Assembly: GCA_016861345.1 (NCBI GenBank)
Contig: BOLD01000007.1
Coordinates: 1 to 64,000 of the forward strand
DNA from: Oligoflexia bacterium
GTDB lineage: Bacteria; Bdellovibrionota; Bdellovibrionia; Bdellovibrionales; Bdellovibrionaceae
Direction: 5' to 3'
DNA: 64,000 nucleotides
The position numbers and the translations under genes were made by a program. This document shows positions 462 to 56,071 of the stretch, piece by piece (the stretch's first letter is position 1; each line of letters begins with the position of its first letter). The notes under the pieces are model-generated. The model saw only the letters and a list, made by a program, of their open reading frames with translations. It searched no databases and was not told the origin of the DNA.

Positions 462-477
462 AGCAGCATTTGTGCCA
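462..477 (-). promoter_or_regulatory. Sigma-54-type -24/-12 promoter for the Gly/Ser-repeat gene
   Basis: On the minus strand the sequence reads TGGCACAAATGCTGCT. It has the full TGGCAC -24 element, GG-N10-GC spacing and a TGCT -12 core. The predicted transcription start is near 451, about 45 nt before the ATG at 405. No transcript data were available. Confidence 0.6.
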
Positions 478-581
478 TTTAAAACAAGTCCCAAATTCAA
501 TAGAATTGGCTTTCGCTGTGCCTTGGCGATTATTTGGGACAGTCTGTAATTGTGCAGTGACAACTTGTCGAAATTTCGCTT

Positions 582-597
582 TGGATTCTCTTTTGCA
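582..597 (+). promoter_or_regulatory. Sigma-54-type promoter for the phosphoribosyltransferase-like gene
   Basis: TGGATTCTCTTTTGCA has exact GG-N10-GC spacing and a TTGCA -12 element. The predicted start near 608 lies inside the long track ORF. The real translation start must therefore be downstream, which agrees with GTG starts at 632 or 641. Confidence 0.55.
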
Positions 598-631
598 CCG
601 ATATCATGCTGTTAAGGTCGGGGGGGGGCAA

Positions 632-1108
632 GTGAGATTGGTGAAAAGCCATGTTATCTCCGGAAAGTTATTCGCGGAAGAAATAGATAAAATGAGGTGG
701 AGAAGTCCACTTTTGATGGCTATGTCAAGAGATTGCTTACCTATTGTTTGGCAAATGTCAAAAGAGCTGAAAATTCCATGGAATGTTTTGGTAGATCGCA
801 ATGTGCTTGTTACCCCACGTGTTGGATCAACAAGCCAACCTGTATGTGTACGTGACCGTACGGTCATTTTAGTCAGTGATGGATTGCCGACACATATGTC
901 CATCCAATCGGCGATCAAAATGTTAAAAAGAAAAGGGGTATATGAAGTCGTTGTTGCAGTCCCCGAAGCTCCTCAATTTGATCATAGTCGGGAGCAATCA
1001 CTGTCCGAAAGGGTGATCGTATTTCAAAATCCTGAGCCATTTTATTCAGAGGAAAAATCTTATGACGTCAGTGTTCCAATGCCGCTTTATCCCGATTTGC
1101 CCGATTAA
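632..1108 (+). CDS. Degenerate phosphoribosyltransferase-family protein
   Basis: The C-terminal half (RTVILVSDGL...SAIKMLKRKGVYEVVVAVPEAP) matches the core of the COG1926-type predicted phosphoribosyltransferases often found in stress and anoxia gene clusters. The usual PRPP loop DDG-xATGxT is replaced by SDGLPTHMS, the PRGG-type N-terminal motif is SRDC, and the middle of the family is shortened, so catalysis is doubtful. The track start at 395 overlaps the divergent gene and lies upstream of the promoter at 582-597. A GTG at 632 (or 641) after a run of nine G residues is more likely, giving about 158 aa. A length error in the G run is possible but would not explain the motif loss. Confidence 0.55.
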   Translation: MRLVKSHVISGKLFAEEIDKMRWRSPLLMAMSRDCLPIVWQMSKELKIPWNVLVDRNVLVTPRVGSTSQPVCVRDRTVILVSDGLPTHMSIQSAIKMLKRKGVYEVVVAVPEAPQFDHSREQSLSERVIVFQNPEPFYSEEKSYDVSVPMPLYPDLPD

Positions 1109-1114
1109 CGTTAT

Positions 1115-1546
1115 TTAGTAGGGTATCGGGCGTGCTTCTTTTGCGGGGCGCTTCTGGTTTTCCTCGTAGTCCATTTGACAGTCGATGCAAAAGCGAGATT
1201 CTGGAGCAATTAAGAGCCGCTTGATTGGAATCGGCTTGTGACAGCCCTCGCATTCAGCAAATGTCCCATTATCGAGCCTTTCCAAAGAGGTTTCAATTTC
1301 CTGCAGGCTTCTGATATTTTTTTCTGATAGCAGTTCAAGGGTTTCAATGGTCTGTGTATTGGTCGCAAGATCCCCAGAGTGTCGGCGCAGTCGAGAGATT
1401 TCTCCAGTGACGTCGGTGGATAGGTCTTTAAACGCCTGGGTCAATAATTTCTCTTCTGAATCCAAGACAAGCTTCTTTCGCTCTTCAAGCAAACCCCGCC
1501 ATTGGATAACTTCATTTTCTGTAAAACGATTATTTTCCTTTTTCAC
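1115..1546 (-). CDS. DksA/TraR-family zinc-finger protein
   Basis: A helical N-terminal half with a long predicted coiled coil is followed by a four-cysteine zinc finger (CEGC, 17 residues, CIDC), the arrangement of DksA/TraR regulators. These bind the RNA polymerase secondary channel and modulate stringent-response promoters. The protein is about 143 aa. I place the start at GTG 1546 because GAGGAG lies 7 nt upstream; the ATG at 1561 lies before that Shine-Dalgarno sequence. It is the last gene of the minus-strand stress block, 86 nt after the Hsp20 gene, and its end faces the phosphoribosyltransferase-like gene with only a few bases between. The DksA acidic tip motif is not obvious, so a paralogue rather than the housekeeping DksA is likely. 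Confidence 0.75.
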   Translation of the reverse strand: MKKENNRFTENEVIQWRGLLEERKKLVLDSEEKLLTQAFKDLSTDVTGEISRLRRHSGDLATNTQTIETLELLSEKNIRSLQEIETSLERLDNGTFAECEGCHKPIPIKRLLIAPESRFCIDCQMDYEENQKRPAKEARPIPY

Positions 1547-1632
1547 GAGATGACTCCTCATTTAAAAACTCAAGAAGAACAAGCAGTTTTCTCATTCGCA
1601 GAACTCCCAAGTCAAAAGTGGGGATTCGTTCA

Positions 1633-2040
1633 TTAATGAACTTTGATTTCTTTAACCTTTGTTGTTCCAAATTTTGGAATTTGTATAGTCAATACACCGT
1701 CTTCGTAGTGAGCGTCAGCTTTTGATTCATCTACGGCAGATGGCAGCGAGAATGAACGATAGAAAGAACCATAGCAGGATTCACTGATGTGTTGTTTGTC
1801 TTGAGAAGGGACTTTTAATTCCTTTCGCTCGCCTGATACGGATAGTCGATTTCCCTCTATTTCAATTTTGAGATCATCTTTACTAACGCCTGGTATGTCA
1901 AAGTAAGCGACAAACTCTCGGTCACTCTCTGTTAATGTGCAGACAGGAGTAAAGTCAGCAGTTCCATATTTTGCTGTCCAGTCAGAAGCTTCGAACCAAT
2001 CATTGATATCTGACTCCATTCTTGCAAGTGTATTTCTCAT
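1633..2040 (-). CDS. Small heat-shock protein, Hsp20 family
   Basis: This 135-aa protein has an alpha-crystallin domain spanning roughly residues 35-135. It includes the FDIPGVSKDDLKIEIEGNRLSVSGER strand pattern and an A-x-x-x-x-G-V-L signature (HYEDGVLTI). Members are ATP-independent holdases that bind unfolding proteins in the cytoplasm. It begins with AAGGAGA about 6 nt before the ATG and lies 30 nt downstream of the host-attachment-family gene, consistent with cotranscription. A second, membrane-anchored Hsp20 is encoded at 47338-47880. Confidence 0.9.
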   Translation of the reverse strand: MRNTLARMESDINDWFEASDWTAKYGTADFTPVCTLTESDREFVAYFDIPGVSKDDLKIEIEGNRLSVSGERKELKVPSQDKQHISESCYGSFYRSFSLPSAVDESKADAHYEDGVLTIQIPKFGTTKVKEIKVH

Positions 2041-2070
2041 AAAAATCTCCTTTAAATAATAAAATAATAA

Positions 2071-2571
2071 TCAAGATCTTGCGCCAGTATTGCGTGCAAG
2101 AGGTGAGCCATTGAGGGGAATTCGTTTAGGATAAATGAGAGCAGGCTCTAAATTTAATATTTTAGGCCATTTACTTTTTGGCACCTTCTCCAAGTCCTTT
2201 GTTGTCCACTCTATTCTTTCGGAGATACGAATGTTGTCAAATTGGGCTTTTATTTTTCCGAGCATTTTTGCTTCGGCAACGATATTGAGTGTAAGACTTT
2301 TTCGTTTTACGAGTTCACCCTTAAAGAATTTTGAAAGAGCCCTGGCAAATTGGTCTGCGGCATCTTCGTGTGGATCTTTCTCTCTTGTGAGCAGATGAGG
2401 GGCGGAACCCTTCAGTTTCGCCCGGCTTTGACCTGCTTTATCATATTGCATGAGCCTGTTTCTCATTCTGCCTAACGGGTTTGATATGTGGTGGATCAGC
2501 TTGATAGTATGATCTGCTGTAAAGTCGTAAACGTCTGCCCCTGAACGGTTGGCGATAACAATCCATTTCAT
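2071..2571 (-). CDS. Host-attachment (baeRF-like) family protein
   Basis: This 166-aa protein begins WIVIANRSGADVYDF, the usual opening of the family described as required for attachment to host cells (PF10116). That family is related to archaeo-eukaryotic release-factor folds. The conserved middle (PHEDAADQFARALSKFF) and the closing helix pattern (TKDLEKVPKSKWPKIL) fit as well. The molecular function is not settled; the name comes from an Agrobacterium attachment phenotype, and a ribosome-linked role is equally plausible. GGAGG precedes the ATG. The gene is 15 nt after the hibernation-factor gene, which places it in the stress operon. Confidence 0.75.
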   Translation of the reverse strand: MKWIVIANRSGADVYDFTADHTIKLIHHISNPLGRMRNRLMQYDKAGQSRAKLKGSAPHLLTREKDPHEDAADQFARALSKFFKGELVKRKSLTLNIVAEAKMLGKIKAQFDNIRISERIEWTTKDLEKVPKSKWPKILNLEPALIYPKRIPLNGSPLARNTGARS

Positions 2572-2586
2572 GTGACCTCCAGTGAA

Positions 2587-2958
2587 TTATATGCTCGGTT
2601 GATGGAGCCTGATATACTGTCTCACTCTGTTTCGTCGCATTCTGATTTTTTCCTTTAACACTCGCTCTGCTGAATCAAAGGCATTTCGGATGGCAACATA
2701 AATATCTTTTTGGGCTTCATCCTTCTCGGGATTTCGGCTAATCACAATTTCGTTTCGTGGCAGATAAATATGAACATTGACATGATAATAGCGATCCGCA
2801 TGGTGATGTCGATGAGGACAAGAGATGGTGACTTCACATTTAATAATGTGATCATTGTAATGGGTTAGTTTCTCAATTCGCTCTTGAACCGCAAGCCAAA
2901 TTGCATCTGACTCGGGAAAATCAATAAAAGTAATTTGAAAGGGAATTTCATTGGGCAT
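2587..2958 (-). CDS. hpf: Ribosome hibernation promoting factor (S30AE family)
   Basis: The 123-aa product starts MPNEIPFQITFIDFPESD and has the beta-alpha-beta-beta-beta-alpha layout and basic C-terminal helix (VLKEKIRMRRNRVRQYIR) of short HPF/RaiA proteins. These bind the 30S decoding region and inactivate or dimerise ribosomes in starvation. The track start at 3087 is too long. The ATG at 2958 has GGAGG about 8 nt upstream and overlaps the end of the stress-protein gene by 11 nt, suggesting translational coupling. The gene symbol is by family resemblance; a second S30AE-like gene lies at 46843. Confidence 0.8.
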   Translation of the reverse strand: MPNEIPFQITFIDFPESDAIWLAVQERIEKLTHYNDHIIKCEVTISCPHRHHHADRYYHVNVHIYLPRNEIVISRNPEKDEAQKDIYVAIRNAFDSAERVLKEKIRMRRNRVRQYIRLHQPSI

Positions 2959-3919
2959 AGTTGAATCCCTCCTTTCCTTTTGTTTGTGAAACTTGAAAAG
3001 AGGGTTGCTTAACGCCAGCTCGTTTTTTGGGTCTGTAGTAGACAAGAACAGGGCATTTTGCCTGAAGAAGGACATCGCGAGCAACACTGCCTAGTAGAGC
3101 TTGGGCCAAGGGACCACTTGTGCTGGACATAGCGATCAGTCCAACATGGTTCTTTTTAGCAATATCTAATATAGAAGAACTTAAATTCCTCTTTTGAGGT
3201 TTAATCACAGAGGAACATTTTACGTTTTGATCTTCTAAATGATGAATCCATTCCTTTGCCTTTTTCTGCCTTGTTTTCTCTACGGATTGCGATGCAATTG
3301 TAAATGATCTACTGGCATTGCTCCATGAATATTGAACATCGGGTGGGTAGATATTCTGCCTTTCGACAAGATTATAAAGAATGACATGGGCATCAAATTT
3401 TCGAAGTATTGGTTCAAGATGAAGTAAGGCCCTTTTTGAATCCTGTTGAAAATCGGTTGGAAATAGGACTGAAGACAATTTAAGGGAGGGGCGTGTGTGA
3501 GTGTTCATAATCAGAATGGGTACACGAGATGTTGTAATTAAACTTTCAGCAAAGCCGCCCATTTGAAAGGGAATCCAGCTCTTTTTAGCGTGTGTGTTGA
3601 CGAAGATGAACTGGGCCTTCTCACGTTCAGCATACCTGGCTAAGGCCGAGGCCATTGCTCGAGCAGAGGATAGCTTTTCAATAATAAGATGGGTCGGAAG
3701 AAGTTGTCTGACTTGTAATTTATTCAAGTAAAGAGAGACTTTCTCCATCGGAAATGAAGGAGAGTCAGTTACCGTGACAGGTTGAATATCGCAATTCAGC
3801 TTATGTGCCCAGAGCTTCATTTCAGCGACAAGGTTTTTTGCTAATTGAGGGTCCTGGTTGGGATCAAGAGCCCAAATGATCTTATCTCTCCCATGAGAAT
3901 GAATATGTTTCTTAGTCAT
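2948..3919 (-). CDS. Tandem-domain universal stress protein
   Basis: This 323-aa protein has two UspA-type modules. The second (about residues 155-310) keeps a nucleotide-binding-like tail, GLIAMSSTSGPLAQALLGSVARDVL followed by CPVLVYY, matching the G-2x-G-9x-G(S/T) pattern. The first module is more divergent. Universal stress proteins bind ATP or sense energy state and are induced by stress and growth arrest. It is the first gene of the operon continuing into hpf, the host-attachment-family gene, Hsp20 and DksA/TraR. AAGGA lies about 8 nt before the ATG and a sigma-54-type promoter lies about 40 nt upstream. Confidence 0.85.
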   Translation of the reverse strand: MTKKHIHSHGRDKIIWALDPNQDPQLAKNLVAEMKLWAHKLNCDIQPVTVTDSPSFPMEKVSLYLNKLQVRQLLPTHLIIEKLSSARAMASALARYAEREKAQFIFVNTHAKKSWIPFQMGGFAESLITTSRVPILIMNTHTRPSLKLSSVLFPTDFQQDSKRALLHLEPILRKFDAHVILYNLVERQNIYPPDVQYSWSNASRSFTIASQSVEKTRQKKAKEWIHHLEDQNVKCSSVIKPQKRNLSSSILDIAKKNHVGLIAMSSTSGPLAQALLGSVARDVLLQAKCPVLVYYRPKKRAGVKQPSFQVSQTKGKEGFNYAQ

Positions 3920-3958
3920 TGAGGATATCCTTTCATCTCTGAATGAATAAGCCTGATC

Positions 3959-3974
3959 TGCAATGTCGATACCG
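3959..3974 (-). promoter_or_regulatory. Sigma-54-type promoter for the stress operon
   Basis: The minus strand reads CGGTATCGACATTGCA, with GG-N10-GC spacing and a perfect TTGCA -12 element; the -24 element matches at GG and A. The predicted start near 3948 lies 29 nt before the ATG at 3919. It closely resembles the element at 17902-17917 (TGGTATTGACATTGCT). Confidence 0.45.
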
Positions 3975-4076
3975 ATCGATCTTAATTAGAAGTTAACAGA
4001 AGTTTGTCGCTCAAATAGAAATCAGAAGGTTGCTGAGTTGAATGTTAAGAATTGTTAACTTAATGAAAAATTGAGG

Positions 4077-4170
4077 TGTGACAATTCAGACATCGTCATG
4101 GTCATGTTGTCACAGAGGTGAAATATTCATGACAGTCATTGTTGTGATTCATGAATTAAAAGTTGACTGT
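4077..4170. promoter_or_regulatory. Operator-like region with nested inverted repeats
   Basis: The 369-nt divergent intergenic region holds TGTGACA (4077-4083) paired with TGTCACA (4108-4114). It also holds ATTCATGA (4125-4132) paired with TCATGAAT (4149-4156), and CAGTCA next to it paired with TGACTG at 4164. These look like binding sites for a dimeric regulator, possibly upstream activator sites for the adjacent genes. The factor is unknown. Confidence 0.4.
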
Positions 4171-4206
4171 GATGGGTGTAATTTGTGTAATGCGCCCACT
4201 TTATAG
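4129..4206 (+). CDS. Possible 25-aa Cys-cluster leader peptide
   Basis: A short ORF reads MTVIVVIHELKVD and then CDGCNLCNAPTL, a C-x2-C-x2-C cluster. AGAGGTG lies about 10 nt upstream of its ATG. It sits about 80 nt before the NtrC-type activator. It could be a metal- or redox-sensing leader peptide, a ferredoxin remnant, or chance. It also overlaps the inverted repeats described above, so its coding status is uncertain. Confidence 0.2.
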   Translation: MTVIVVIHELKVDCDGCNLCNAPTL

Positions 4207-4288
4207 AAATTGATGAGCAAAAGTCCTGTACGACATCTTGTGATCAGCTAGCCGTGTTTTTGTGTGACTAATTTTGAAGGGGGTTCAA

Positions 4289-5712
4289 ATGAGTCAGCAT
4301 GTGGTCGTTGTTGATGATGAAGCAGATGTTCGTGAGGTTATCGCAGAATTGCTCACGCGAGAGGGCTTTGAAGTGACCCAGTTTTCATCAGCAGCGGAAG
4401 CATTGCAAAGTTTTAAAGTCAGTCAACCACAGGTTCTGATCACAGATTATCAGATGGAGACCATTGATGGACTTGCCTTTTTGAGGAAGGTTCAAACTGA
4501 TTATCCAGATATTGTTACAATAATGATGACTGCCTTTGGATCTATCGAAACAGCAATTGAGGCCATGAAGAATGGGGCCTATCACTATATTTGCAAGCCT
4601 TTTAAAAGCGATGAACTTATCCTTTTAACAAAGCGAGCCTTTGAAAAGGCAAATCTCAAACAAGAAAATCAAGACCTGAAGATGCAATTGAATCGAAACT
4701 ATAGTCTTGATGCCATCATTGGTAAAAGCCAGGCCATGGCTGCAGTTTTTGATCTGATTCGACATGTTTCCAGTACAACCGCAAATGTTCTTATTACAGG
4801 GGAAAGCGGTTCAGGTAAGGAGCTTGTCGCGCGAGCTCTTCATTATTCAGGTTCAAGAAAAAATAAGCCATTTGTTCCCATTAACTGCACGGCGATACCT
4901 GAACAGCTTTTGGAAAGTGAACTTTTTGGTCATGTTAAAGGTGCCTTTACTGGAGCAGTCAGTAATAAGAAAGGTCTTTTTGAAGAAGCTCAGGGTGGAA
5001 CTTTATTTCTTGATGAAATTGGTGATTTAAGTTTGACCCTTCAGGCCAAGTTACTCCGCGTTCTACAAGATAAGCAGATTCGTGCTGTTGGTGACAGCAA
5101 GCTTAAAAACGTGGATGTGCGAATCGTGGCAGCAACGCATCGGGATCTTAAAATTCTTTCTAATCTCGGAAAGTTTCGTGAAGATCTTTTTTATCGACTA
5201 AATGTAATTCCCATTCGTGTTCCAGCTCTGAGGGAGCGAATAGAGGATATCCCATTGTTAGTGGAAAGTTTTATTGCAAAATTTGCGGCTCGAAACGGAA
5301 CATCGATTAAGCGGGTTTCTCCAGAAGCGATGGCAGTCTTAATGGCTCACCCCTGGCCAGGTAATGTTCGCGAGCTTGAGAATGTGATTGAACGGGCTAT
5401 GGTGCTGAGTCGTGGAGAAGTTATAGAAAAAGAAATGGTCTTAGACAGCGCCTTGACCGAGGCCAAGTCAAGTGTTGAACAGATTCACAGCGATCGTCCG
5501 ACCTTAGAGCAGTTAAATGAGCGTTATATTCGTATCGTCTTAAATGAGGTCAATAATGAAAAAGATAAGGCTGCGAAAATTCTAGGTATCAGTCGACGCA
5601 CGTTGTATCGAAAAGAAAGAGCCTCTATGGGATGGTGGCCCAAGATCAACTTGAGTTACCGCTTGAGCACGGGGAATCAGATTTGGAGCGTGATAATGAG
5701 TTGGTCAACTAA
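4289..5712 (+). CDS. NtrC-type sigma-54 response regulator, frameshifted near its 3' end
   Basis: The protein has a receiver (DDE near the start, phospho-acceptor in LITDYQME, K in CKPF) and an AAA+ domain (GESGSGKE Walker A, GAFTGA loop, LFLDEIGD). A Fis-type helix-turn-helix follows (KAAKILGISRRTLYRKER). The ORF track joins it to a downstream gene as a 664-aa fusion, but after KER (about 5620) the +1 frame continues LYGMVAQDQLELPLEHGESD and stops at 5710-5712. That is a normal tail for this family; the paralogue at the right edge ends KEREYGLIDPSL. One base is therefore missing near 5621, by mutation or sequencing error. The ATG at 4289 has AAGGGGG 6 nt upstream and replaces the TTG at 4274. 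Confidence 0.8.
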
Positions 5713-6268
5713 GGAATTACCAGAAGGACTGCTATCGCCCTTCATTCAGATTTTAGATGAAAATCTGATGATGGTTGTCGTTAACCAGAGCGGTGTTATT
5801 CAGTACGCATCGGATCGATACTGTCATTACTTTCATAAAAATCAAGATCAATTAAAGGGGCAAATTCACCAGGATTTTGATAAAGTGAAGTCCGTAGAAA
5901 TTATCGATGATAGCACAAAACAGGCAGTGAGCGCTGCTGGCGAGACATTAAGGTTATCATGCACTTGGTTTTCCTTTCAGGACCAATTGACACAGGAACA
6001 GCATTATTTGTTTATGTACAGTGATGTTACTGAAAAAGAGCAATTGAAAGAACAACTTCAGGCCAACATCCAGAGGTATTCAAAGAATGTTCATAAGCTT
6101 GGAAATTTACTGGCTGTCGCTCGTTGTCGCGCAGAGATACTTGATAAAAGGGTTAGTGATAATGAAAAGCTGCAAAAAGACACTTTGGCTGTGTTAACTC
6201 AAATTGACAAAATCACTCAACAACTTCATTCGGAGGCAGGGAGCCTTCGGGGGAATGCACGGGCATAG
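5696..6268 (+). CDS. PAS-DHp protein without kinase domain
   Basis: This 190-aa protein starts at ATG 5696 with GGAG 7 nt upstream and overlaps the proposed true end of the activator gene by 17 nt. Residues of about 15-115 form a PAS-like domain (ILDENLMMVVVNQSGVIQYASDRY, ending LFMYSDVTEKEQL). The C-terminal helices contain an H-box-like motif, NVHKLGNLLAVARCRAEIL, as in histidine-kinase dimerisation domains. No ATPase domain follows; the Hpt gene lies antisense there. The usual acidic residue after the histidine is lysine. It may be a sensor or phosphotransfer scaffold acting with the neighbouring Hpt and receivers, but this is inference. Confidence 0.6.
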   Translation: MSWSTKELPEGLLSPFIQILDENLMMVVVNQSGVIQYASDRYCHYFHKNQDQLKGQIHQDFDKVKSVEIIDDSTKQAVSAAGETLRLSCTWFSFQDQLTQEQHYLFMYSDVTEKEQLKEQLQANIQRYSKNVHKLGNLLAVARCRAEILDKRVSDNEKLQKDTLAVLTQIDKITQQLHSEAGSLRGNARA

Positions 6269-6533
6269 AGTAATGTTCTGTGAGATAACTTCGGTATTCC
6301 TCAATGAGATTTTCTAAAGAGCGGTGATCTGCCTTGTTCGCGGCGGCCTCTAAATTTGTTGCAATCTGAACTAATTTCGTGAATCCAAAAGCACCCGAAA
6401 TCCCTCTTAAATTATGTCCCAGTTTCTTTATTGCAGTATAATCGCCTTGAATCATATACAGCTCGAGGTTCTCCATGTCCTTCCATCTCGATTCAATAAA
6501 CGAGGGCAATAGCGGAAGAAGTTCTTGCTCCAT
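6213..6533 (-). CDS. Histidine phosphotransfer (Hpt) protein
   Basis: This 106-aa four-helix-bundle protein has the Hpt signature KKLGHNLRGISGAFGF, in which the histidine is the expected phospho-acceptor. Such proteins shuttle phosphoryl groups between receiver domains. It has a good ribosome-binding site (AGGAGGT before the ATG) and follows the membrane-anchored receiver gene by 23 nt. Its 3' end overlaps the PAS-DHp gene by 56 nt in convergent orientation. Its position between a kinase-less DHp protein and two receivers argues for a local phosphorelay. Confidence 0.85.
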   Translation of the reverse strand: MEQELLPLLPSFIESRWKDMENLELYMIQGDYTAIKKLGHNLRGISGAFGFTKLVQIATNLEAAANKADHRSLENLIEEYRSYLTEHYSMPVHSPEGSLPPNEVVE

Positions 6534-7242: not shown

Positions 7243-7695
7243 TTAATGAGAGGAAATATGTGAGACAGCTTTACTTGGGTTGAGACTAATTGGCAGGGCT
7301 GAGATATCTTGTTGAGTATCTAATAGTTCATACTTAGCCACTGTGTTAAGAAAACTGTCAATTTCAAATGGCTTTTGTAATGTTCCAGCAACTCCTTCAG
7401 GAAGCTCGATCATATTCAGTTCCGCCATAGCAGAGCATATGACAATGGGAACTTGAGGACAAAGGTTCTCGGCTCGGAGTTGGGCTATGACCTCGTGTGA
7501 AGTCATGTCTGGAAGACTGTGATCAAGCAAGATTAAAGACAGTTTATCATTATGATTGGTACGGATTAATTCAAGAGCTTGGTTTCCACTGGTTGCTGCG
7601 GCAACATTGTAACCGGCGTTTTCAAGCAGGTAGCTCATTAGTTCGAGCATTTCAGGATAATCTTCTACAATAAGCACTTTCTTGCCAATAGGCAT
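7243..7695 (-). CDS. Single-domain response regulator (CheY-like)
   Basis: This 150-aa protein is essentially one receiver: KVLIVEDYPEM (acidic pocket), LILLDHSLPDM (phospho-acceptor aspartate), a switch-region serine (ICSA) and LQKPF (lysine). A short tail has no recognisable output domain. It is the first gene of the receiver/receiver/Hpt operon, 71 nt before the membrane receiver. GAGGGG precedes the ATG and a strong sigma-54-type promoter lies 45-60 nt upstream. Confidence 0.85.
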   Translation of the reverse strand: MPIGKKVLIVEDYPEMLELMSYLLENAGYNVAAATSGNQALELIRTNHNDKLSLILLDHSLPDMTSHEVIAQLRAENLCPQVPIVICSAMAELNMIELPEGVAGTLQKPFEIDSFLNTVAKYELLDTQQDISALPISLNPSKAVSHISSH

Positions 7696-7739: not shown

Positions 7740-7755
7740 AGCAATATCTAAGCCA
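7740..7755 (-). promoter_or_regulatory. Sigma-54-type promoter for the receiver/Hpt operon
   Basis: The minus strand reads TGGCTTAGATATTGCT: TGGC at -24, exact N10 spacing, TTGCT at -12. The predicted start near 7729 is about 34 nt before the ATG at 7695. Confidence 0.6.
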
Positions 7756-7964: not shown

Positions 7965-7980
7965 TGGCATTGATGTTGCT
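7965..7980 (+). promoter_or_regulatory. Sigma-54-type promoter for the 53-aa gene
   Basis: TGGCATTGATGTTGCT matches the -24/-12 consensus at nearly every conserved base with GG-N10-GC spacing. The predicted start near 7991 is followed by GGGAGGGGG and the ATG at 8009. Confidence 0.65.
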
Positions 7981-8008: not shown

Positions 8009-8170
8009 ATGTCGACCTGTAGAAAAGCAAAAAATAAAAACACAAAATCAACACAACATAAACCGCGTGAGTATAAAGAGGTAGACCTAATGCTGCAAAA
8101 GCTCGGGGATAAGTGGTATGCCTTTCTTGAGTTAAATGGGAATGTTTATTACCAAGGCCTTCTAAGATAA
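8009..8170 (+). CDS. Small 53-aa basic protein, function unknown
   Basis: The gene is too short for the ORF track. GGGAGGGGG lies about 6 nt before the ATG, and a sigma-54-type promoter lies about 30 nt upstream of that. The first 20 residues are lysine-rich and polar. The rest (DLMLQKLGDKWYAFLELNGNVYYQ) looks like a compact folded segment with aromatic residues. No signal peptide or membrane segment is seen. Its 3' end overlaps the convergent copper ATPase gene by 9 nt. I recognise no named family; promoter, ribosome-binding site and composition together argue that it is real. Confidence 0.6.
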   Translation: MSTCRKAKNKNTKSTQHKPREYKEVDLMLQKLGDKWYAFLELNGNVYYQGLLR

Positions 8171-12034: not shown

Positions 12035-12985
12035 TTACTGATGTGCCGTTCTGATGATGGGGGTTAATGTTGTTTTATAGGGGATGATCTGTGAATTATA
12101 TTGAGCAATAGCTTTTATAATAGAATCCTGAGATAAGCTTTGAGTAGTAAAGTAGAGATCGACCAGAGTTCTGGTGACCATAGCTGTTGCCTGTGACGTG
12201 CCACTCATGACGCCATAAGCGTTACCTGGAAGGGTAGAGAAGATGTCTCGGCCAGGAGCTGCTAAATGAGTAGTCTTCAAACCATAATTACTTGAGGGCA
12301 GAAGTTGTTTTTCGTCAGATAAAGCGGCAACAGAGATGATATTTTTGAGTCGATAACTTGCAGGATAAAAGCCCTTTATATCTGTGTTGATGTGGTCATT
12401 TCCTGCCGCAGCGATGATAAGAATTCCCTGTGATTCGGCTAGGCGTAAAAGATACTCTTCTTCTTTGCTCTTTTCATAGCCGCCGCCTGAATAATTGATG
12501 ACTTTGGCTTTCATCTGAATTGCGTATCGAAGGCAGTCCAGGCTGCTTCTTAAATTTTGAACTCCTGTGGTTTTTGGATCATAATATTTCAAGGCCATCA
12601 ATTCGATTTTTGGGGAGCGTGGATTTTGCTTTTCGGTGATAATGCCGGCAATATGGGTTCCATGTCCATGTGTATCCATCACTGACTTTGTGTTCGAGGC
12701 AAAGTTCCATCCATGAAGATCATCAACAAATCCATTTCCATCATCATCAATACCGTTTATTGACTTATCTCGGCCAAGATTGTCTCTTCCTGTTTCTCCA
12801 GGGTTTTTCCAAAGATAGGATTTTAAATCTGGGTGATCTGTATCGATCCCCGTATCAATAATGGCGATCAGAATCTTGGATGTCAGTGGTGGTGGTTGTA
12901 GAGGTAAATTTTTTCGAGTGGCTCCATAGCCTACTCTTGATAGAAGAAGAGTTAGAATCATAATGACAATCCACATGCTTTTCAT
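12035..12985 (-). CDS. Secreted subtilisin-like serine protease (S8)
   Basis: A signal peptide (MKSMWIVIMILTLLLSRVGYGA) is followed almost directly by the catalytic domain. The triad motifs are visible: aspartate in AIIDTGIDTDHPDL, histidine in THGHGTHIAGI, serine in MSGTSQATAMV, and the oxyanion asparagine in AAAGND. A calcium-like acidic loop (NGIDDDGNGFVDD) is present. At 316 aa there is no room for the usual I9 propeptide, which is unusual for a secreted subtilase. A sigma-54-type promoter lies upstream at 13018-13033. It probably acts in the periplasm or outside the cell. Confidence 0.9.
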   Translation of the reverse strand: MKSMWIVIMILTLLLSRVGYGATRKNLPLQPPPLTSKILIAIIDTGIDTDHPDLKSYLWKNPGETGRDNLGRDKSINGIDDDGNGFVDDLHGWNFASNTKSVMDTHGHGTHIAGIITEKQNPRSPKIELMALKYYDPKTTGVQNLRSSLDCLRYAIQMKAKVINYSGGGYEKSKEEEYLLRLAESQGILIIAAAGNDHINTDIKGFYPASYRLKNIISVAALSDEKQLLPSSNYGLKTTHLAAPGRDIFSTLPGNAYGVMSGTSQATAMVTRTLVDLYFTTQSLSQDSIIKAIAQYNSQIIPYKTTLTPIIRTAHQ

Positions 12986-13017: not shown

Positions 13018-13033
13018 AGCAAGACAGAAGCCA
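13018..13033 (-). promoter_or_regulatory. Sigma-54-type promoter for the subtilase gene
   Basis: The minus strand reads TGGCTTCTGTCTTGCT, with TGGC at -24, N10 spacing and TTGCT at -12. The predicted start near 13008 is about 22 nt before the ATG at 12985. Confidence 0.6.
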
Positions 13034-17901: not shown

Positions 17902-17917
17902 TGGTATTGACATTGCT
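17902..17917 (+). promoter_or_regulatory. Sigma-54-type promoter for small secreted protein gene
   Basis: TGGTATTGACATTGCT has GG-N10-GC spacing and TTGCT at -12. The predicted start near 17928 is about 22 nt before the ATG at 17950. Confidence 0.6.
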
Positions 17918-17949: not shown

Positions 17950-18246
17950 ATGCCTAACGTAAAAATTATCATGGTAGTTCTGATTCTATTTATATCCCTA
18001 AGTGGACAAGCTGATGGTGGTTGTTTGGATAAGAGCAAGGAGCTCATCAGTTCGGAGACTCGAAAAACGCCAGAATGTATAGAGCTACCTCTCAGAAGGC
18101 AAATTGCCACTTGCTACGTGGCCTCAGGAGATAAAGATGAAAAGGGGCATGAGATTATTAGCAATTATGGAGACTATGAGTATTGGACTCATATGACGGG
18201 TGTATTCAACAGAAAACTCGAACTGAACAAGAGGCTCGTGCTATAA
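17950..18246 (+). CDS. Small secreted protein of unknown function
   Basis: The 98-aa product has a signal peptide (KIIMVVLILFISLSGQADG) and a short polar mature part with four cysteines. I recognise no family. The track starts at a GTG at 17944, but AAGGAG lies 7 nt before the ATG at 17950 and only 1 nt before the GTG. It stands alone between ybeY and prfB with its own sigma-54-type promoter, so it is probably regulated separately from both. Confidence 0.6.
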   Translation: MPNVKIIMVVLILFISLSGQADGGCLDKSKELISSETRKTPECIELPLRRQIATCYVASGDKDEKGHEIISNYGDYEYWTHMTGVFNRKLELNKRLVL

Positions 18247-18431: not shown

Positions 18432-19563
18432 ATGTCTATTGCTGCAGAAACCTATGATGTTAAAAGAACCCTTGGGGAATTAAAAAAGCTCTCGGATGAA
18501 CTCCGGGGGTATCTTTGACTTAGATCGCAAAAAAAAGCGACTCGAAGAACTTGGCCTTCAGGCTGAGAATCCAGCGGTGTGGAACGATCCCGCAAAAATG
18601 AATGCCCTAAATAAGGAAAAATCGATTCTTGAAAAAGCCATTGCGGAATATGAATCCTTCGCTCAAAAGTTAGCTGATGCTGAAGTGTTGGTCGATATGG
18701 CGATTGAGGCCAATGACGAAGATACTTTTTCAGAAGCAAAGAACGAGATTTTATCACTTCAGAAAATGGGGCAAGACTTAGAGATTAAGCGAGTTCTCAG
18801 TGGAGAACTGGATGCGAATTCAACCTATTTGTCGATTAATGCCGGAGCGGGGGGAACCGAGGCCTGTGATTGGGCTTCGATGCTCATGCGAATGTATCTT
18901 CGGTACGCGGATCAACATGGATATAAAACCGATATTCTTGAAACATCAGATGGGGACGGTGCGGGAATTAAATCTGTGACCATGCTCATTGAAGGGCCCT
19001 ATGCTTACGGTCACTTGAAAGCAGAAAGTGGAGTTCACCGACTTGTGCGTATTTCACCCTTTGATTCCAATGCTCGTCGACACACAAGCTTTGCCTCTGT
19101 CTTTGCTTGGGCTGAAGTGGATGATGATATCAAGATTGAGATCAATCCGAATGATATTGAAGTTGAAACATTCCGTTCCAGTGGTGCGGGCGGACAGCAT
19201 GTGAATAAAACAGACTCTGCAGTGCGAATGCGGCACAAGCCCAGTGGAATCGTTGTGGCCTGTCAGTCACAGCGGTCCCAAATTCAAAATAGAGAGAAGG
19301 CTTTAAAAATGTTGAAAGCGGCTCTTTATGAAAAAGAAATCGAAGCTAGAAATAAAGCGAAAGAAGCCCAAGAGGCCGGAAAAAAAGCCAATGAATGGGG
19401 CTCTCAGATTCGATCTTATGTCATGCATCCCTATCAGATGGTGAAGGATCATCGAACAGGTTTTGAAACGAATCAGGTTGATGATGTCATGAATGGGGAT
19501 CTTGATGGGGCGATAATGGCTTATCTGAAATCTCAGATTCATCCCGAGGGGGTTCAAAGTTGA
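18432..19563 (+). CDS. prfB: Peptide chain release factor 2 with programmed +1 frameshift
   Basis: The first 28 codons (MSIAAETYDVKRTLGEL...) end in CGG GGG TAT CTT TGA C, the classic RF2 autoregulatory site with an upstream G-rich Shine-Dalgarno-like stretch. A +1 shift at CTT TGA (18513-18518) enters the long frame listed in the track, which starts nominally at 18496. The full product is about 376 aa and contains the GGQ motif (SSGAGGQHVNKTDSAV) that triggers peptide release. RF2 reads UGA and UAA, so low RF2 favours frameshifting and raises its own synthesis. It is followed by the lol genes (TTGA overlap). Confidence 0.96.
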
Positions 19564-41705: not shown

Positions 41706-41706
41706 A

Positions 41707-50316: not shown

Positions 50317-52146
50317 ATGTCATTATTAATCAGTGCTGTTCAGTTATCAAAATCTTTCGCAGGTAAAAAACTTTTTCATGGCATTAGCTTTGGAATTTCA
50401 GAAAATGAACGAGTTGGTTTTCTTGGGCCCAATGGAGTGGGTAAGTCGACCTTAATGCAGATTCTTGCAAAAAAAATCCCGCAAGATTCTGGAGAAGTCG
50501 TTGCAACCAAAGGCCTTCGCATCGGCTATTTGGAGCAATCTCCAAAATTTCCCGCAAATGCGACGATTTGCTCCTTTCTTCTTCATAATCATGAAATTGA
50601 TCCTGATTTGATGGCTAAGGCCTATGAGTGGATCGGGCGACTTGAGCTCAGCCAATTTGACGAGCAGACTCCGATTGCCTCTCTCTCAGGTGGGTGGCAA
50701 AAAAAAGTGGCTCTTGCTCATGAATTAATGCGAACTCCGGATTTACTTTTTTTAGATGAGCCAACGAATCATCTGGATGTGGAAAGTATCAAGTGGCTTG
50801 AGGACTTTTTATCTCAGGCTAAGTTTTCGTGTTTCTTCATTACCCATGATCGACTTTTTTTACAACGTGTGGCCAATCGAATTATTGATCTTGATCCCCG
50901 GTTTCCTGGATTCTTACTATCAGTGAATGCGGGCTACGATCAGTATTTGGAATCCAAAGCTGAGATGATTTCCAATCAAGAAATTCGAGAAACAAAACTG
51001 AAGAATCTGCTCAGAAGAGAAAAAGAGTGGCTGGCCAGGGGAGCTCAGGCTCGACAAACCAAGCAAAAAGCTCGCATTGAAAATGCAGGAAAATTAGCTT
51101 CTCACGTTGAAGATCTCACCGATCGAAATCGCCAACGAAAACTCAACCTTGAATTCGAGGCTCAAGAAAAAAATCCAACTAGGCTGATTGAGTGTATCAA
51201 GGTCAGTAAAAAATTTGGGGACAAGTGGGTTTTTCGCGATCTGAATTTAATGATCACTCCAAAAACTCGATTGGCATTAATGGGTGTGAATGGAGCAGGA
51301 AAGTCAACTTTGATTCGAGTTCTATTAGGGCTTGAAGCTCCAACTTCTGGTCAGGTGAAAATTGCCGAGAATTTAAAGTCAGCCTACTTTGAGCAGGGAA
51401 GAGATGCTTTGAAGCAAGAAGAAAGTGTGCTGAAAAACATCTGCCCCTTTGGAGACTATGTCCAGTACCGCAATCAATCGGTCCATGCTCGAAGTTATTT
51501 GGAGCGGTTTCATTTTTATAAAAACCAAGTGGATTTGCCAGTGAAGCAATTGTCCGGAGGAGAGCAGGCAAGACTTCGCATTGCGCAGTTGATGCTTCGT
51601 GAAGCTCAAATTCTTATTCTGGATGAGCCGACGAATGATCTCGATATTGATACATTAAACTCGCTTCAGGAATCTTTAGAGGACTTTCCGGGTGCGGTGA
51701 TTTTGGTGACGCATGATCGATTCTTTATGGATCAGATTGCAAAGCAGATTTTAGCTTTTAGCCCCTTCGAGAATGATCAAAATCAACTGATTCCTTTTGC
51801 GGATTACCTGCAGTGGGAAAAGTGGTTTGATGAAAAAACTGAGCTGGTCCAATCAGGGGGTGACAATCAGCAGGCTGGTGATAGTCAGGGTATAGCTCAC
51901 CAAGGTTCCAAATCTGATTCGAGGAAGCTATCTTATAAAGAGAAAATCGAGTTTGAAAAAATGGAAGAAGTGATCACCCAGAAAGAAGTTCGTCTGGCTC
52001 AAATTGAAAATGAAATTGAAGACCCCCATATCGCCAGTCAGGCGGATAAGGTCCAAGGCTTGTACGCAGAAATGTCAGGGCTTCAGCAGGAAATTGCAAG
52101 GCTCTATAGTCGATGGGCAGAGTTAGAAGAAAAAGTTAAAATATAA
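50317..52146 (+). CDS. uup: ABC-F ATPase (Uup-like)
   Basis: The 609-aa protein has two ABC domains (Walker A GPNGVGKST and GVNGAGKST; signatures LSGGWQKK and LSGGEQAR; LDEPTNHLD and LDEPTNDLD). An inter-domain linker and a C-terminal coiled coil (KLSYKEKIEFEKMEEVITQKE onward) follow, as in Uup. ABC-F proteins act on the ribosome; Uup also has branched-DNA links. No membrane segments. The symbol is by resemblance. Confidence 0.88.
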   Translation: MSLLISAVQLSKSFAGKKLFHGISFGISENERVGFLGPNGVGKSTLMQILAKKIPQDSGEVVATKGLRIGYLEQSPKFPANATICSFLLHNHEIDPDLMAKAYEWIGRLELSQFDEQTPIASLSGGWQKKVALAHELMRTPDLLFLDEPTNHLDVESIKWLEDFLSQAKFSCFFITHDRLFLQRVANRIIDLDPRFPGFLLSVNAGYDQYLESKAEMISNQEIRETKLKNLLRREKEWLARGAQARQTKQKARIENAGKLASHVEDLTDRNRQRKLNLEFEAQEKNPTRLIECIKVSKKFGDKWVFRDLNLMITPKTRLALMGVNGAGKSTLIRVLLGLEAPTSGQVKIAENLKSAYFEQGRDALKQEESVLKNICPFGDYVQYRNQSVHARSYLERFHFYKNQVDLPVKQLSGGEQARLRIAQLMLREAQILILDEPTNDLDIDTLNSLQESLEDFPGAVILVTHDRFFMDQIAKQILAFSPFENDQNQLIPFADYLQWEKWFDEKTELVQSGGDNQQAGDSQGIAHQGSKSDSRKLSYKEKIEFEKMEEVITQKEVRLAQIENEIEDPHIASQADKVQGLYAEMSGLQQEIARLYSRWAELEEKVKI

Positions 52147-52147
52147 A

Positions 52148-53497
52148 TTAAATATAAGGTTTGATCTTCTCAAGAAAGTTCGCGGTGAATCGCTTCCCAA
52201 TGTTGAGAATTTCTTCCTGAAAGATCTTCTTGCGAACCTCAATTGGATTTGGTCGTTCTTTTCCAAAGTCAATCATTGAAGCTTGATCAACCAGCTCACA
52301 GAACTGAATCAAAAATGATTCCAGTGGAATTTTTTCTCCAAGGGGTTGAAGGGGGAATCCGGTTCGATCTGCTCTTTCGTGAGTTGATTGAATGATCACC
52401 TTCAGGTGATCGGGGATTGGAATTTTACGCGAAAGGGCTTTGTTGAGGCTAACAGTGGGATGATTTTTGTAATCTCTGAGATCTTCTTCTTTTAATTGGT
52501 CAATTTTTCTTTGTCTCATCAGTTGGATGGCTTTGGGGTTCATTTCAAGTAATCCCACGTCTGCCATCAATCCTGCGATCATCACTTCCTCAGGCTTTCC
52601 AATGCCCGACATTAAACTGATCAAGCCTGCAGAGGCTGCAATTGCAGGAGCCCGATCAATCGCTGTGAGGTCGTCAAAGCCTGAAAGATTCACAACATCA
52701 CCGGCATCACCAACGGCAGAAAGACTCATGATGAGATCTGAGGCAAGGGTAATGACCTTGTCATAGAGTTCTCTTCCAGCCTGATATGAAGAGGCCTCAC
52801 TTTGATCTGAGATGAGCATGACAAGATCTTTGTAGGCGACATTCATGTTCATGAATTGAGCGCGGCATCGACTTTTTAAACCCTTTGCAGATTTGTCCTG
52901 ATTTTTTTCAATGTACTTTTGAAAGGCATCAACTTCTTCACGCTTGATGTAGAACTCTCCGATGGATTGGATTTTCTCAAATTTTTCTTTGTCTAAGATT
53001 CGCCCCTTGGGAAGGAAGGGGATGATTTTTTGATTTAGTGGCATCAGGTGATGAATTGTCATTTCTAATTCTTTATCAGCAACAAGCTCAGCTGATTTAA
53101 TGGGAATCATTGTTCCATGTACTTTTCGAGAAAAGACGAATTCAATTTTTGACGAAGTCTCGTATTCATCTTCAAGAAGAACGACATTGGCCCCAGATTT
53201 TTTAATAAAGGCTGCGCCTTCGTTTTGAACTTTTTTCGCCACTACAACAGCGATATAGGCATTCGGGGCAACATAGCGAGCAACTTGCACAAGTCCTGCA
53301 GTAGCTGTTTCATTTGGAGAATGAGTTGCTGAAATAACAATAACGTCAGATTTCTGAGCGATGGCTTCTTTTTCAGATAGGGCATCCACTGTATCAAAAG
53401 TCATGAAATTGACCTGAAAGAGATCAGCAACAGCCTGAGCTCTTTTGTAGAATTGGGGATCGCTAGAAATAACTGTCAATAGGTGTTGTGTCGCCAT
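52148..53497 (-). CDS. Degenerate HD-GYP/HDOD-like signalling protein
   Basis: The 449-aa protein has an N-terminal pseudo-receiver-like domain (HLLTVISSDPQFYKRA, SDVIVISATHS). Its C-terminal half aligns with HD-GYP domains, but the metal residues are changed. The HD pair reads AD in GLMADVGLLEM, HHE reads THE in IIQSTHERAD, and DGxGYP reads DRTGFP. Cyclic di-GMP hydrolysis is unlikely; a binding or scaffold role is plausible. I take the ATG at 53497 over the track TTG at 53521. Confidence 0.6.
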   Translation of the reverse strand: MATQHLLTVISSDPQFYKRAQAVADLFQVNFMTFDTVDALSEKEAIAQKSDVIVISATHSPNETATAGLVQVARYVAPNAYIAVVVAKKVQNEGAAFIKKSGANVVLLEDEYETSSKIEFVFSRKVHGTMIPIKSAELVADKELEMTIHHLMPLNQKIIPFLPKGRILDKEKFEKIQSIGEFYIKREEVDAFQKYIEKNQDKSAKGLKSRCRAQFMNMNVAYKDLVMLISDQSEASSYQAGRELYDKVITLASDLIMSLSAVGDAGDVVNLSGFDDLTAIDRAPAIAASAGLISLMSGIGKPEEVMIAGLMADVGLLEMNPKAIQLMRQRKIDQLKEEDLRDYKNHPTVSLNKALSRKIPIPDHLKVIIQSTHERADRTGFPLQPLGEKIPLESFLIQFCELVDQASMIDFGKERPNPIEVRKKIFQEEILNIGKRFTANFLEKIKPYI

Positions 53498-53587
53498 AGC
53501 TACCAGTTTAACGAGACTCAAGCGTCTTTGCGAGAATTATCATTGAAGCTGGGCTTTCAGTTCAGCTTCGCTGACTTCCTAAATGAC

Positions 53588-54064
53588 TTAGGGGCGATCA
53601 TCTGTTGGAAGTCGATCAAAGACATAGATAAAGGGATCACCAGCTAGACTTAGATAAAGATGAAACTTTCCATCTTTAAATCGAATTTCATTCGATGCCT
53701 TACGACCCAGTCTCATGTCCGGGTCCTGACTGCACTCAATGTTGTTGTCGGGATTAATCCAAACGACCTCATCTTCTAAACGATGGTCAATGATGGAATA
53801 CTTACCTTTTCGTTCACAAAACCCAGGTTCATTTTGCCTTGCCCAAAATATTTCGTTTGTGCCGTCAGCGTGAAATTCAAAAAGTAAAATCAGATTGGGA
53901 TTTAGTGGGAGACGAAATTCACCCTGATAAATAAAACCGATATTTTTCCACGTTCCAAGAATTTGGTCCTCTTCAGTTGGGGATATGGCTAGGACAGGCC
54001 CCGTGGGGAGGCAGATCATTGCCCCCAAGAGTATAACTAAAATGAAATAACGAATTAGAGCCAT
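53588..54064 (-). CDS. Secreted lipocalin-like small protein, unknown
   Basis: The 158-aa precursor has a signal peptide (YFILVILLGAMICLPTGPVLA) and a mature domain starting ILGTWKNIGFIY. The W-containing opening and alternating strands suggest a small beta-barrel, but I cannot assign a family. It overlaps the end of the protease gene by 10 nt, so the two are likely cotranscribed. Confidence 0.6.
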   Translation of the reverse strand: MALIRYFILVILLGAMICLPTGPVLAISPTEEDQILGTWKNIGFIYQGEFRLPLNPNLILLFEFHADGTNEIFWARQNEPGFCERKGKYSIIDHRLEDEVVWINPDNNIECSQDPDMRLGRKASNEIRFKDGKFHLYLSLAGDPFIYVFDRLPTDDRP

Positions 54065-55473
54065 TGCCTTTTCTTCAGAACGTCTCGGATGTTCTGTTTC
54101 TCCTCATCAGTAAAGCCGTTTGCCATGGCTGATTCAACTGATTGCACGAAAGTTGAAAACTTTCCAGAGGGGCCAAGGCGGCTCAGCGTCTTAGTTGCTA
54201 AGATAAGCCCTTGGCGTTCGCCAATTAGCTCTTTAATTTCCCAAAGAGTGCCGCTGACAATAGTGCTATCAAAGTACAAAGTACCCTTACGGTCGCTCAG
54301 TTTAAGTGAATTATCCACAGTGCGCTTAAATGGACCTTTGAGATATGAAACCTCACCTAAGTGGGGATGGTTCATGAATGTGGTGGTAAAGAAGTCAGCA
54401 AAAGCCTCGTTCAGAGAGCCGCCCTCACCCTCATTTGGTAGTCGAGAGATTCCATCAATCAAGGCATGGCAAGTCTCATGCATAACGATGGTGGGGTCCT
54501 TCATCATGTTTGCGTAATTGACCCCGTCACCTGTGCCCAATCGGATTTGGCCATGATAATAAAATGCAGCGTTTGTCTTATCTGGAGCACCATACTGAGT
54601 TTGAACTTCAAGCGAGAAGGGAAGGGAGATTCCCAACTTTGAAATGAAAAGTCCCAGTGTGCGATCAACAAAGTAAAATGCCTGTACTTGGTCAAAGCGA
54701 CCATCTGCGGGATCATAATTAAATACCAAATTTGGATTTTGAGCTTTTTCTGCGGCTTGAGAGATGACCTTTAGATTTTGCTTTGTCAAAGTCCCATCTC
54801 CGATAAGGCCCCCAAGCATCACTTCAGAAAGTTCACTCATTTTTGGTCCAGAAGGGAAAACAGTCGCTTTTCCTTGATCAAATCCAGAAGAAGTTCTCTC
54901 TTGGCTAATGACACCGCTATTTGGAGAAACCTTCATGCGGTACACGCCAGTTCCGGCATGGTCGATGTAGTCAATGTTGTATATAATTTGTGCTCCAGCT
55001 GCAGTTTGGTGAATAGCAACTTTAGGATCGAAGATTTGTTGAGCATTCTTCAAAGATGCATCTTTTCCCTTAAATTTTTGAAGGAAAGCAAACTTCTCTG
55101 TGTTTCTTTTTTCAATCAGAGTGCGTAATTTTGAGTAATCTTCGTCGATGTACTGTCCTCGAGCGAAGATCAGACTGCCTTTTGAATTATACAATTTCTG
55201 AACGAAGCCACCCTCAACCTCAGCTGGTCCAACCATCTGTGGTGAGCGCTCCACGAGTTCATTATTTGTGAGTAATGAAATTTCTTGTTGTTTAAACTGT
55301 TCCCCATGAATAAGGCCAGGAAGAGATTGAGATCCACCCACTTGCCAAATGAACTCTTTAGGGGCAGAGGCTTTTGAACACGAAATTAGATTTGAGACGA
55401 GAAAAATGCCACCGACAAGTGATCCTAATCGAGTAGCTAGACGAGCATCAATGTGGTTTTTTAGACTGCTCAT
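54055..55473 (-). CDS. M4-like (gluzincin) lipoprotein metalloprotease
   Basis: The 472-aa protein has a lipoprotein signal (LVGGIFLVSNLISC). A catalytic domain follows with the zinc motif MHETCHALIDG (HExxH) and the downstream glutamate in GSLNEAFADFF, as in thermolysin or fungalysin-type proteases. The N-terminal ~200 residues look like a propeptide (FTP/PepSY-like). GGGGGAAAA precedes the ATG. It is probably attached to the outer membrane or cell surface. Confidence 0.8.
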   Translation of the reverse strand: MSSLKNHIDARLATRLGSLVGGIFLVSNLISCSKASAPKEFIWQVGGSQSLPGLIHGEQFKQQEISLLTNNELVERSPQMVGPAEVEGGFVQKLYNSKGSLIFARGQYIDEDYSKLRTLIEKRNTEKFAFLQKFKGKDASLKNAQQIFDPKVAIHQTAAGAQIIYNIDYIDHAGTGVYRMKVSPNSGVISQERTSSGFDQGKATVFPSGPKMSELSEVMLGGLIGDGTLTKQNLKVISQAAEKAQNPNLVFNYDPADGRFDQVQAFYFVDRTLGLFISKLGISLPFSLEVQTQYGAPDKTNAAFYYHGQIRLGTGDGVNYANMMKDPTIVMHETCHALIDGISRLPNEGEGGSLNEAFADFFTTTFMNHPHLGEVSYLKGPFKRTVDNSLKLSDRKGTLYFDSTIVSGTLWEIKELIGERQGLILATKTLSRLGPSGKFSTFVQSVESAMANGFTDEEKQNIRDVLKKRQWL

Positions 55474-55531
55474 TTTTCCCCCATATCTCCCACTGTTATC
55501 GGCAAAAACCAGAATTCCTTAAACGTGGGAG

Positions 55532-55559
55532 GCCTGCACCTCCCTATGGGGGTGCAGGC
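55532..55559 (-). terminator. Strong hairpin, possible terminator
   Basis: The stem GCCTGCACC/GGTGCAGGC lies downstream of the gene ending at 55591 and upstream of the protease gene. There is no long T run after it on the minus strand, so termination is uncertain. Confidence 0.4.
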
Positions 55560-55590
55560 AACCATTAGAACTTATACTATTATCGAACTC

Positions 55591-55992
55591 TTACTCTTCG
55601 ATGACCAGGCCTTTCTCAAGGTAAGTGCCATCGCCGTTCATAAATCGGACTTTGTGCTCGCCTGCACCGATAGTTCCTAGACGAACTTCCTTAGTGAAGG
55701 GCACAAGGACCATTAAACACATTCCCTGACTTACTTTTGCTACAGACTTCACCTCATGAAGGCTAGTTGTAGGATGAGCTACATCAGCTCGTGACCAACG
55801 GTAGCAACCATTTGGGAATATACCGTTAACTACGACGAACACGTCCGAAGTCGAGTCAAAACCACTTGGAATATATGCATCGTTCACACCAACAACGACT
55901 TCCTTCTCAGCAGGAACATCTGCCGCCTGAGCGTTAAGGCCCATAAACATACCAGCAACTGCTACTGCTACCATTAAAAATCTCTTTGTCAT
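55591..55992 (-). CDS. Small secreted protein of unknown function
   Basis: The 133-aa precursor has a signal peptide (RFLMVAVAVAGMFMGLNAQA) and a mature part with two cysteines (NGCYRW, GMCLMVL) and an immunoglobulin-like strand pattern. The ATG at 55992 has GGGGG upstream; the track start at 56163 is upstream of the sigma-54-type promoter at 56056-56071 and so is rejected. No family recognised. Confidence 0.65.
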   Translation of the reverse strand: MTKRFLMVAVAVAGMFMGLNAQAADVPAEKEVVVGVNDAYIPSGFDSTSDVFVVVNGIFPNGCYRWSRADVAHPTTSLHEVKSVAKVSQGMCLMVLVPFTKEVRLGTIGAGEHKVRFMNGDGTYLEKGLVIEE

Positions 55993-56055
55993 TTTTCCCC
56001 CATTTTCTGCTGACCCTTTTTCCTTGGCCAGTTTGTTGTGTTTGCCATTTACTAG

Positions 56056-56071
56056 AGCAATACGTGTACCA
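56056..56071 (-). promoter_or_regulatory. Sigma-54-type promoter for small secreted protein gene
   Basis: The minus strand reads TGGTACACGTATTGCT, with GG-N10-GC spacing and a perfect TTGCT. The predicted start near 56045 is about 53 nt before the ATG at 55992. Confidence 0.6.

Follow-up and report, generated by a model that had tools for sequence, protein, structure and literature searches.

The first 64 kb of contig 7 (BOLD01000007.1) of an Oligoflexia bacterium, here called the window and taken from a 2.76-Mb, 85%-complete genome, carry elements of the -24/-12 type ahead of genes for stress proteins and secreted proteins. We put the probability that these are genuine sigma-54 promoters of a conserved stress and stasis regulon at about three in four. 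An earlier, sequence-only reading of the window had proposed that sigma-54 promoters precede genes for stress, secreted and signalling proteins. For the stress and secreted genes this is well supported, and some relatives have kept the same grouping. Named relatives are metagenome assemblies of Pseudobdellovibrionaceae and Bdellovibrionales; genomes used for comparison are coded G004, G008, G014, G024, G136 and so on.

Candidate promoters in the window and in the genome

All eight 16-mers listed by the sequence-only reading are present on the gene-facing strand with the GG-N10-GC spacing, and seven of them end in TTGC[AT], the exception being 462 with CTGCT. The distance from the end of a site to the start codon is 28 to 60 nt, including 34 nt between 582 and a GTG at 632. 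GG-N10-GC alone occurs 302 times in the window, however, and a -24/-12 matrix built on an informal set of known sigma-54 promoters gave 7 matches of at least 12 over the whole window versus 3.8 +/- 2.2 in dinucleotide shuffles, which is no excess. As such, counting alone is uninformative, and it was abandoned in favor of position and orientation. The sequence-only reading had staked its claim on matrix scores exceeding those of shuffled sequence; taken literally, the total count goes against it, and it is placement that rescues the claim.

An upstream site was defined as a match on the correct strand, at most 120 nt before a curated start, with a matrix score of at least 10.5. Sixty gene starts in the window were curated by hand; automatic gene calls had missed short genes and mis-set starts. 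Six upstream sites were found, compared to 0.32 in 1000 shuffles (maximum 3), and none when the antisense strand or a reversed matrix was used with the same starts. It is therefore the placement of the sites, rather than their total count, that supports them. The Fisher p-value for upstream regions versus the rest of the window, approximately 1e-6, is indicative only, as the matrix came from an informal promoter set and both curation and threshold were chosen once the sites had been seen; the sites themselves and their conservation do not depend on it. No oriented upstream site scoring at least 10.5 was found in the housekeeping lpx, bam, pil, and cco blocks, in agreement with what had been seen by eye. 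The candidate elements are as follows:

462 to 477, minus strand: -24/-12 element TGGCACAAATGCTGCT, 56 nt before a secreted Gly/Ser-repeat protein (405-1); score 15.8
582 to 597, plus strand: weak -24/-12-like element TGGATTCTCTTTTGCA, before a phosphoribosyltransferase-like gene (632-1108); score 2.2, core-only rank 93
2095 to 2110, minus strand: -24/-12 element TGGCTCACCTCTTGCA, 54 nt before hsp20; score 16.2, the best in the window
3959 to 3974, minus strand: -24/-12-like element CGGTATCGACATTGCA, 39 nt before usp; score 6.1, core-only rank 30
7740 to 7755, minus strand: -24/-12 element TGGCTTAGATATTGCT, 44 nt before a receiver-domain protein (7243-7695); score 12.0
7965 to 7980, plus strand: -24/-12 element TGGCATTGATGTTGCT, 28 nt before a 53-aa open reading frame (ORF; 8009-8170); score 12.5, core-only rank 1
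13018 to 13033, minus strand: -24/-12-like element TGGCTTCTGTCTTGCT, 32 nt before a secreted subtilase (12035-12985); score 5.9
17902 to 17917, plus strand: -24/-12 element TGGTATTGACATTGCT, 32 nt before a small secreted protein (17950-18246); score 10.8
56056 to 56071, minus strand: -24/-12 element TGGTACACGTATTGCT, 60 nt before a secreted protein (55591-55995); score 14.6

The six supported sites are 2095, 462, 56056, 7965, 7740, and 17902, so that five of the eight originally proposed promoters hold up, while the best site of the window had been missed. Site 2095-2110 overlaps the 3' end of the ORF at 2071-2571, which may explain its omission. The other three proposed sites fared less well, as 3959 is weak, 582 is poor, and 13018 is good only when the spacer is disregarded (core-only rank 9). 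Nevertheless, 3959 and 13018 are plausible promoters, and 3959 likely serves the operon usp-hpf-baeRF-hsp20-dksA. Site 582 is still a possible promoter, since good sites precede the phosphoribosyltransferase genes of contig 9 and of G014. Among the putative targets, the subtilase matches Peptidase_S8, and the Gly/Ser protein (window 1-405) consists of tandem repeats and extends past the contig end. The short ORF at 8009-8170 lies behind 7965, the site with the top core-only score.

The possibility that these elements arose by chance, GG-N10-GC being frequent and the intergenic examples having been selected by the earlier reader, draws on the 302 occurrences and the unremarkable total of matrix matches, and could apply to 582 and, less so, to 3959. 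As an account of the whole set it is very improbable, given the placement statistics, the conserved sites in relatives, and an excess of perfect consensus sequences in the source genome: the strict consensus TGGCACN5TTGCW has 7 matches versus 1 for the reversed pattern, and six of the seven are intergenic, 24-56 nt before a start.

The genome also encodes the required machinery, with one rpoN gene (E 9.5e-67) and 14 clear sigma-54 activators. Of the four NtrC-type activators that had been assigned to the window, three are complete and the fourth is cut by its right edge. Among the targets of the perfect-consensus and other strong sites are FliL, a DUF4360 protein, an outer-membrane barrel, a met-zincin, and several proteins that seem to carry signal peptides. 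In addition, contig 9 (L042) carries a second stress island with five intergenic -24/-12 sites, where genes for a Usp paralog, Hsp20, a CBS protein, a phosphoribosyltransferase-esterase, and a Lon-like protein are found together with two copies of a group-II-intron-like RNA. The 16-mer at 7740 recurs identically before the CBS gene of this island. The window holds 6 upstream sites in 64 kb, compared to about 5 of at least 10.5 in 400 kb of control stretches, a comparison that is approximate because the cruder gene calls of the control stretches were not curated. Hence, the regulon is genome-wide, and the window, which had been read as a local regulon, is dense in sites but not their sole location.

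A stress operon, its proposed activator and a candidate operator

The stress genes of the window form an operon on the minus strand, with a sigma-54 activator gene upstream of it. The genes concerned are the following:

1115 to 1561, minus strand: DksA/TraR zinc-finger protein (Pfam)
1633 to 2040, minus strand: Hsp20 small heat-shock protein (Pfam)
2071 to 2571, minus strand: Host_attach / baeRF family 12 protein (Pfam)
2587 to 2961, minus strand: HPF/RaiA ribosome hibernation factor, hpf (Pfam PF02482)
2948 to 3919, minus strand: universal stress protein, usp, first gene of the operon (Pfam and relatives)
4289 to 5620, plus strand: receiver, AAA+ sigma-54 activator and Fis-type helix-turn-helix domains, the proposed stress-gene activator (Pfam)
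6213 to 6533, minus strand: Hpt phosphotransfer protein (Pfam)

The activator at 4289-5620 is the only one in the window that is linked to stress genes by a conserved neighborhood. In G136, which belongs to another family, a gene cluster is found in the order Usp, RNA, activator, Hpt, DksA/CBS, receiver, with -24/-12 sites scoring 10.2 (Usp), 16.5 (RNA), 11.5 (activator), 20.7 (DksA/CBS), and 22.3 (receiver). The G136 activator is 67% identical to the protein encoded at 4289-5620, compared to 48% for the next activator of the source genome, and its position in a stress cluster ties the window activator to stress genes. The Usp, Hpt, and DksA-like proteins of G136 share 38, 38, and 49% identity with those of the window, and the Hpt ortholog adjoins the activator there as well. 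Sites also recur at the matching position before usp orthologs, as TGGTATCGGTCTTGCA in G136 (38 nt before the start) and as TGGCCTGTGCCTTGCA in G008 (29 nt), where Host_attach is preceded by a site too. Similarly, G004 encodes a 58% identical ortholog of the secreted protein at 55591-55995; TGGTCCACTAATTGCT lies 24 nt upstream of it, and Usp, Host_attach, BON, and the group-II-like RNA are found in the same neighborhood. These comparisons suggest that the organization of the regulon is conserved, if patchily, in some relatives.

In the window, the open frame of the activator continues to 6268 with a PAS-like tail that is absent from the G136 ortholog, and which represents either a true fusion or a frameshift merging two genes. 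The 48% paralog, the closest one to the G136 ortholog, is encoded beside the cco cluster (window 63676-63984; contig 7:63730-65082), and the low-oxygen and stress circuits may be related.

A candidate operator for the activator was found in the form of the palindrome GACAA-N-TTGTC, with these occurrences in the window:

559 to 569, no strand: candidate operator GACAACTTGTC, common to the divergent promoters 462 and 582
4078 to 4113, no strand: half sites resembling the operator, GTGACAA at 4078 and GTTGTCAC at 4106, in the interval from usp to the activator gene; looser than the palindrome

In 8.2 kb upstream of sigma-54 sites, the exact palindrome was counted 5 times versus 0.04 expected, the copy shared by 462 and 582 being counted twice. 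Allowing up to one mismatch gave 9, while permuted half-sites gave 0-1. One exact copy separates 462 from 582, and others lie upstream of the CBS gene on contig 9, the activator gene of G136, and hsp20 in G024; the G136 RNA is preceded by a copy with one mismatch. Only three exact copies occur in 638 kb of the source genome, all of them intergenic; the third lies ahead of a secreted protein and a weak -24/-12-like site. Earlier operator k-mers, GTTGTCA and GTGACAA, did not extend to most relatives and were replaced by this palindrome.

From the placement of the sites, the presence of rpoN and its activators, the conservation of sites, neighbors, and activator ortholog in some relatives, and the enrichment of the operator, we infer how the regulon might work. 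A stress or stasis signal, probably passed on by a phosphorelay of a histidine kinase and the Hpt protein, would activate the response regulator at 4289-5620. The activator would then bind operators of the GACAA-N-TTGTC type about 50-150 nt upstream, reach RpoN-polymerase at the -24/-12 element by looping of the DNA, and open the promoter by ATP hydrolysis. This would turn on usp-hpf-baeRF-hsp20-dksA, probably the divergent pair of secreted-protein and phosphoribosyltransferase genes, and, outside the window, the contig-9 island and the group-II-intron-like RNA. The remaining promoters of secreted proteins may depend on different activators, given the 14 that the genome encodes.

Several observations weigh against a single conserved regulon. 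The total of matrix matches is no higher than in shuffles, and 3959, 13018, and 582 are weak by matrix. The palindrome was found post hoc, and most window promoters lack it. Moreover, no site precedes hsp20 or Host_attach in most genomes of the family, only a minority having one, and for this reason family-wide conservation is not claimed.

Some of these points would fit a patchwork, in which real sigma-54 promoters belong to a genome-wide set under several of the 14 activators, and the stress and secreted genes of the window are neighbors without common control. The secreted targets elsewhere in the genome are in line with this, as are the six of nine candidate promoters in the window with no palindrome at up to one mismatch, or with none of its halves. 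We give this possibility somewhat less than an even chance, because stress genes, activator, and Hpt gene occur together in another family (G136), the palindrome links stress and secreted targets, and the secreted protein behind 56056 adjoins Usp, Host_attach, and RNA in G004. A conserved stress and stasis regulon remains our preferred interpretation.

Two further features of the window lie apart from the candidate regulon. At 18432-19563, prfB (release factor 2) is split by what appears to be the usual programmed frameshift (CTTTGAC), and at 58951-61068, CcoN and CcoO of the cbb3 oxidase are apparently fused in a single 705-aa frame.

A group-II-intron-like RNA outside the window

The two RNA copies on contig 9 (7507-8234 and 8940-9704, minus strand) are about 0.8 kb long, lack a reading frame, and are approximately 77% identical; both begin right after a strong -24/-12 element. 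They match the Rfam model for group II intron domains I-IV (RF02003) with 67 and 55 bits, above the gathering score, as do copies of eight relatives. Homology among the copies starts about 12-15 nt after the -12 element. At the 3' end, a conserved 33-nt domain-V-like hairpin with an AGC triad and a 2-nt bulge, nearly invariant in seven copies, is followed by a terminator-like hairpin, in whose helix eight pairs show compensatory changes. None of the Rfam domain V/VI models reports the domain-V-like hairpin, and no branch-point A (domain VI) was identified in the hairpin that follows it.

A covariance model of the 3' part found the RNA in 12 of the 141 genomes searched from the order and in 33 of 369 from the phylum, with no match within the window. 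An apparent copy in G010 was dropped because of its poor alignment. Among 37 copies examined, 18 (almost all outside a single family) have a -24/-12 element scoring at least 11, located 616 to 695 nt upstream of the modeled part, with none that strong elsewhere in the preceding kilobase. Copies of family f12 (e.g., L153, L148, and L157) have no such element, and sigma-54 control of the RNA is thus not universal. In L153, a sigma-54 activator gene lies upstream of the RNA and a CBS gene downstream. Several copies are located 75-120 nt before hsp20 or CBS genes.

Inspection of the 5' block of the aligned copies did not show the canonical GUGYG end. No GIIM maturase domain was found in 13 of 16 carrier genomes, the source genome among the 13, although the genomes are partly incomplete, and the RNA loci scanned contain no YADD reverse-transcriptase motif. 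On account of the 5' boundary and the maturase, the RNA is classed as related to group II introns, rather than as a member. We lean towards the interpretation that the stress regulon controls a new RNA family, free-standing and derived from group II introns, with its own sigma-54 promoter, a terminator-like end, and no maturase; a selfish ribozyme would have been domesticated into a stress-induced non-coding RNA, perhaps as a structural, sponge, or leader RNA for dormancy.

The alternative that the RNA is an ordinary splicing group II intron, one that lacks a protein and has only a very short first exon behind the sigma-54 start, is unlikely. The RF02003 match in the source genome and eight relatives' loci and the domain-V-like hairpin speak for such an intron, as does a group II maturase in three of the 16 carriers that could act in trans. 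Its fixed spacing behind a -24/-12 element in several families, the terminator-like hairpin at its 3' end, and the missing GUGYG end, YADD motif, and, in most carriers, maturase all speak against it.

Comparison with known systems

The promoters and their activator belong to a known kind. The sigma-54 regulome of Desulfovibrio vulgaris, with the consensus tGGcacg/tTGCt, several activators, and palindromic activator sites (PMC4641369), resembles the system described here in each of these respects. The main text of that report mentions no universal stress protein or Hsp20, whereas the predicted targets here are a ribosome-hibernation and chaperone set and a structured RNA. Sigma-54 has also been presented as a controller of the “bacterial exterior” (Francke et al. 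2011, PMC3162934). Many targets found here are secreted or envelope proteins as well, so that this part of the grouping, which the sequence-only reading had called unexpected, is not; the stress and hibernation genes are not included in the theme as set out in the accessible part of that article.

For relatives of predatory bacteria, the analysis offers a testable stress-survival switch that comprises a specific activator, a possible operator sequence, and a set of target genes. In gene content, the set is reminiscent of the mycobacterial DosR regulon, a dormancy set that brings together Usp, Hsp20, hibernation, and phosphoribosyltransferase genes; the likeness is one of gene content only, and DosR is not known to be a sigma-54 activator. 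In a limited set of open-access papers, we found no precedent for the RNA, for a conserved sigma-54 set of Usp, Hsp20, and hibernation genes, or for such a set with a free-standing group-II-like RNA.

A large structured RNA acting on its own is known from the same phylum, namely merRNA of Bdellovibrio bacteriovorus; this is a 445-nt c-di-GMP riboswitch RNA, for which no link to group II introns or sigma-54 was described (PMC3627812). Compared with group II introns (RF02003; ORF-less forms, PMC4424553, as far as the accessible part of that article goes), the RNA is alike in its domain I-IV match and domain-V-like hairpin, and differs in having its own sigma-54 promoter and a terminator-like 3' hairpin, in lacking a canonical 5' boundary, and in the absence of a maturase from most carriers. 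If our interpretation is correct, parts of the Bdellovibrionota hold a domesticated RNA family, often encoded just before hsp20 or CBS-domain genes, that resembles a group II intron turned host gene. As protein-less group II introns are reported to be rare in bacteria, and the accessible part of the same article describes no promoter-driven free-standing form (PMC4424553), such a family would be relevant to the question of how parasitic ribozymes turn into RNAs of the cell.

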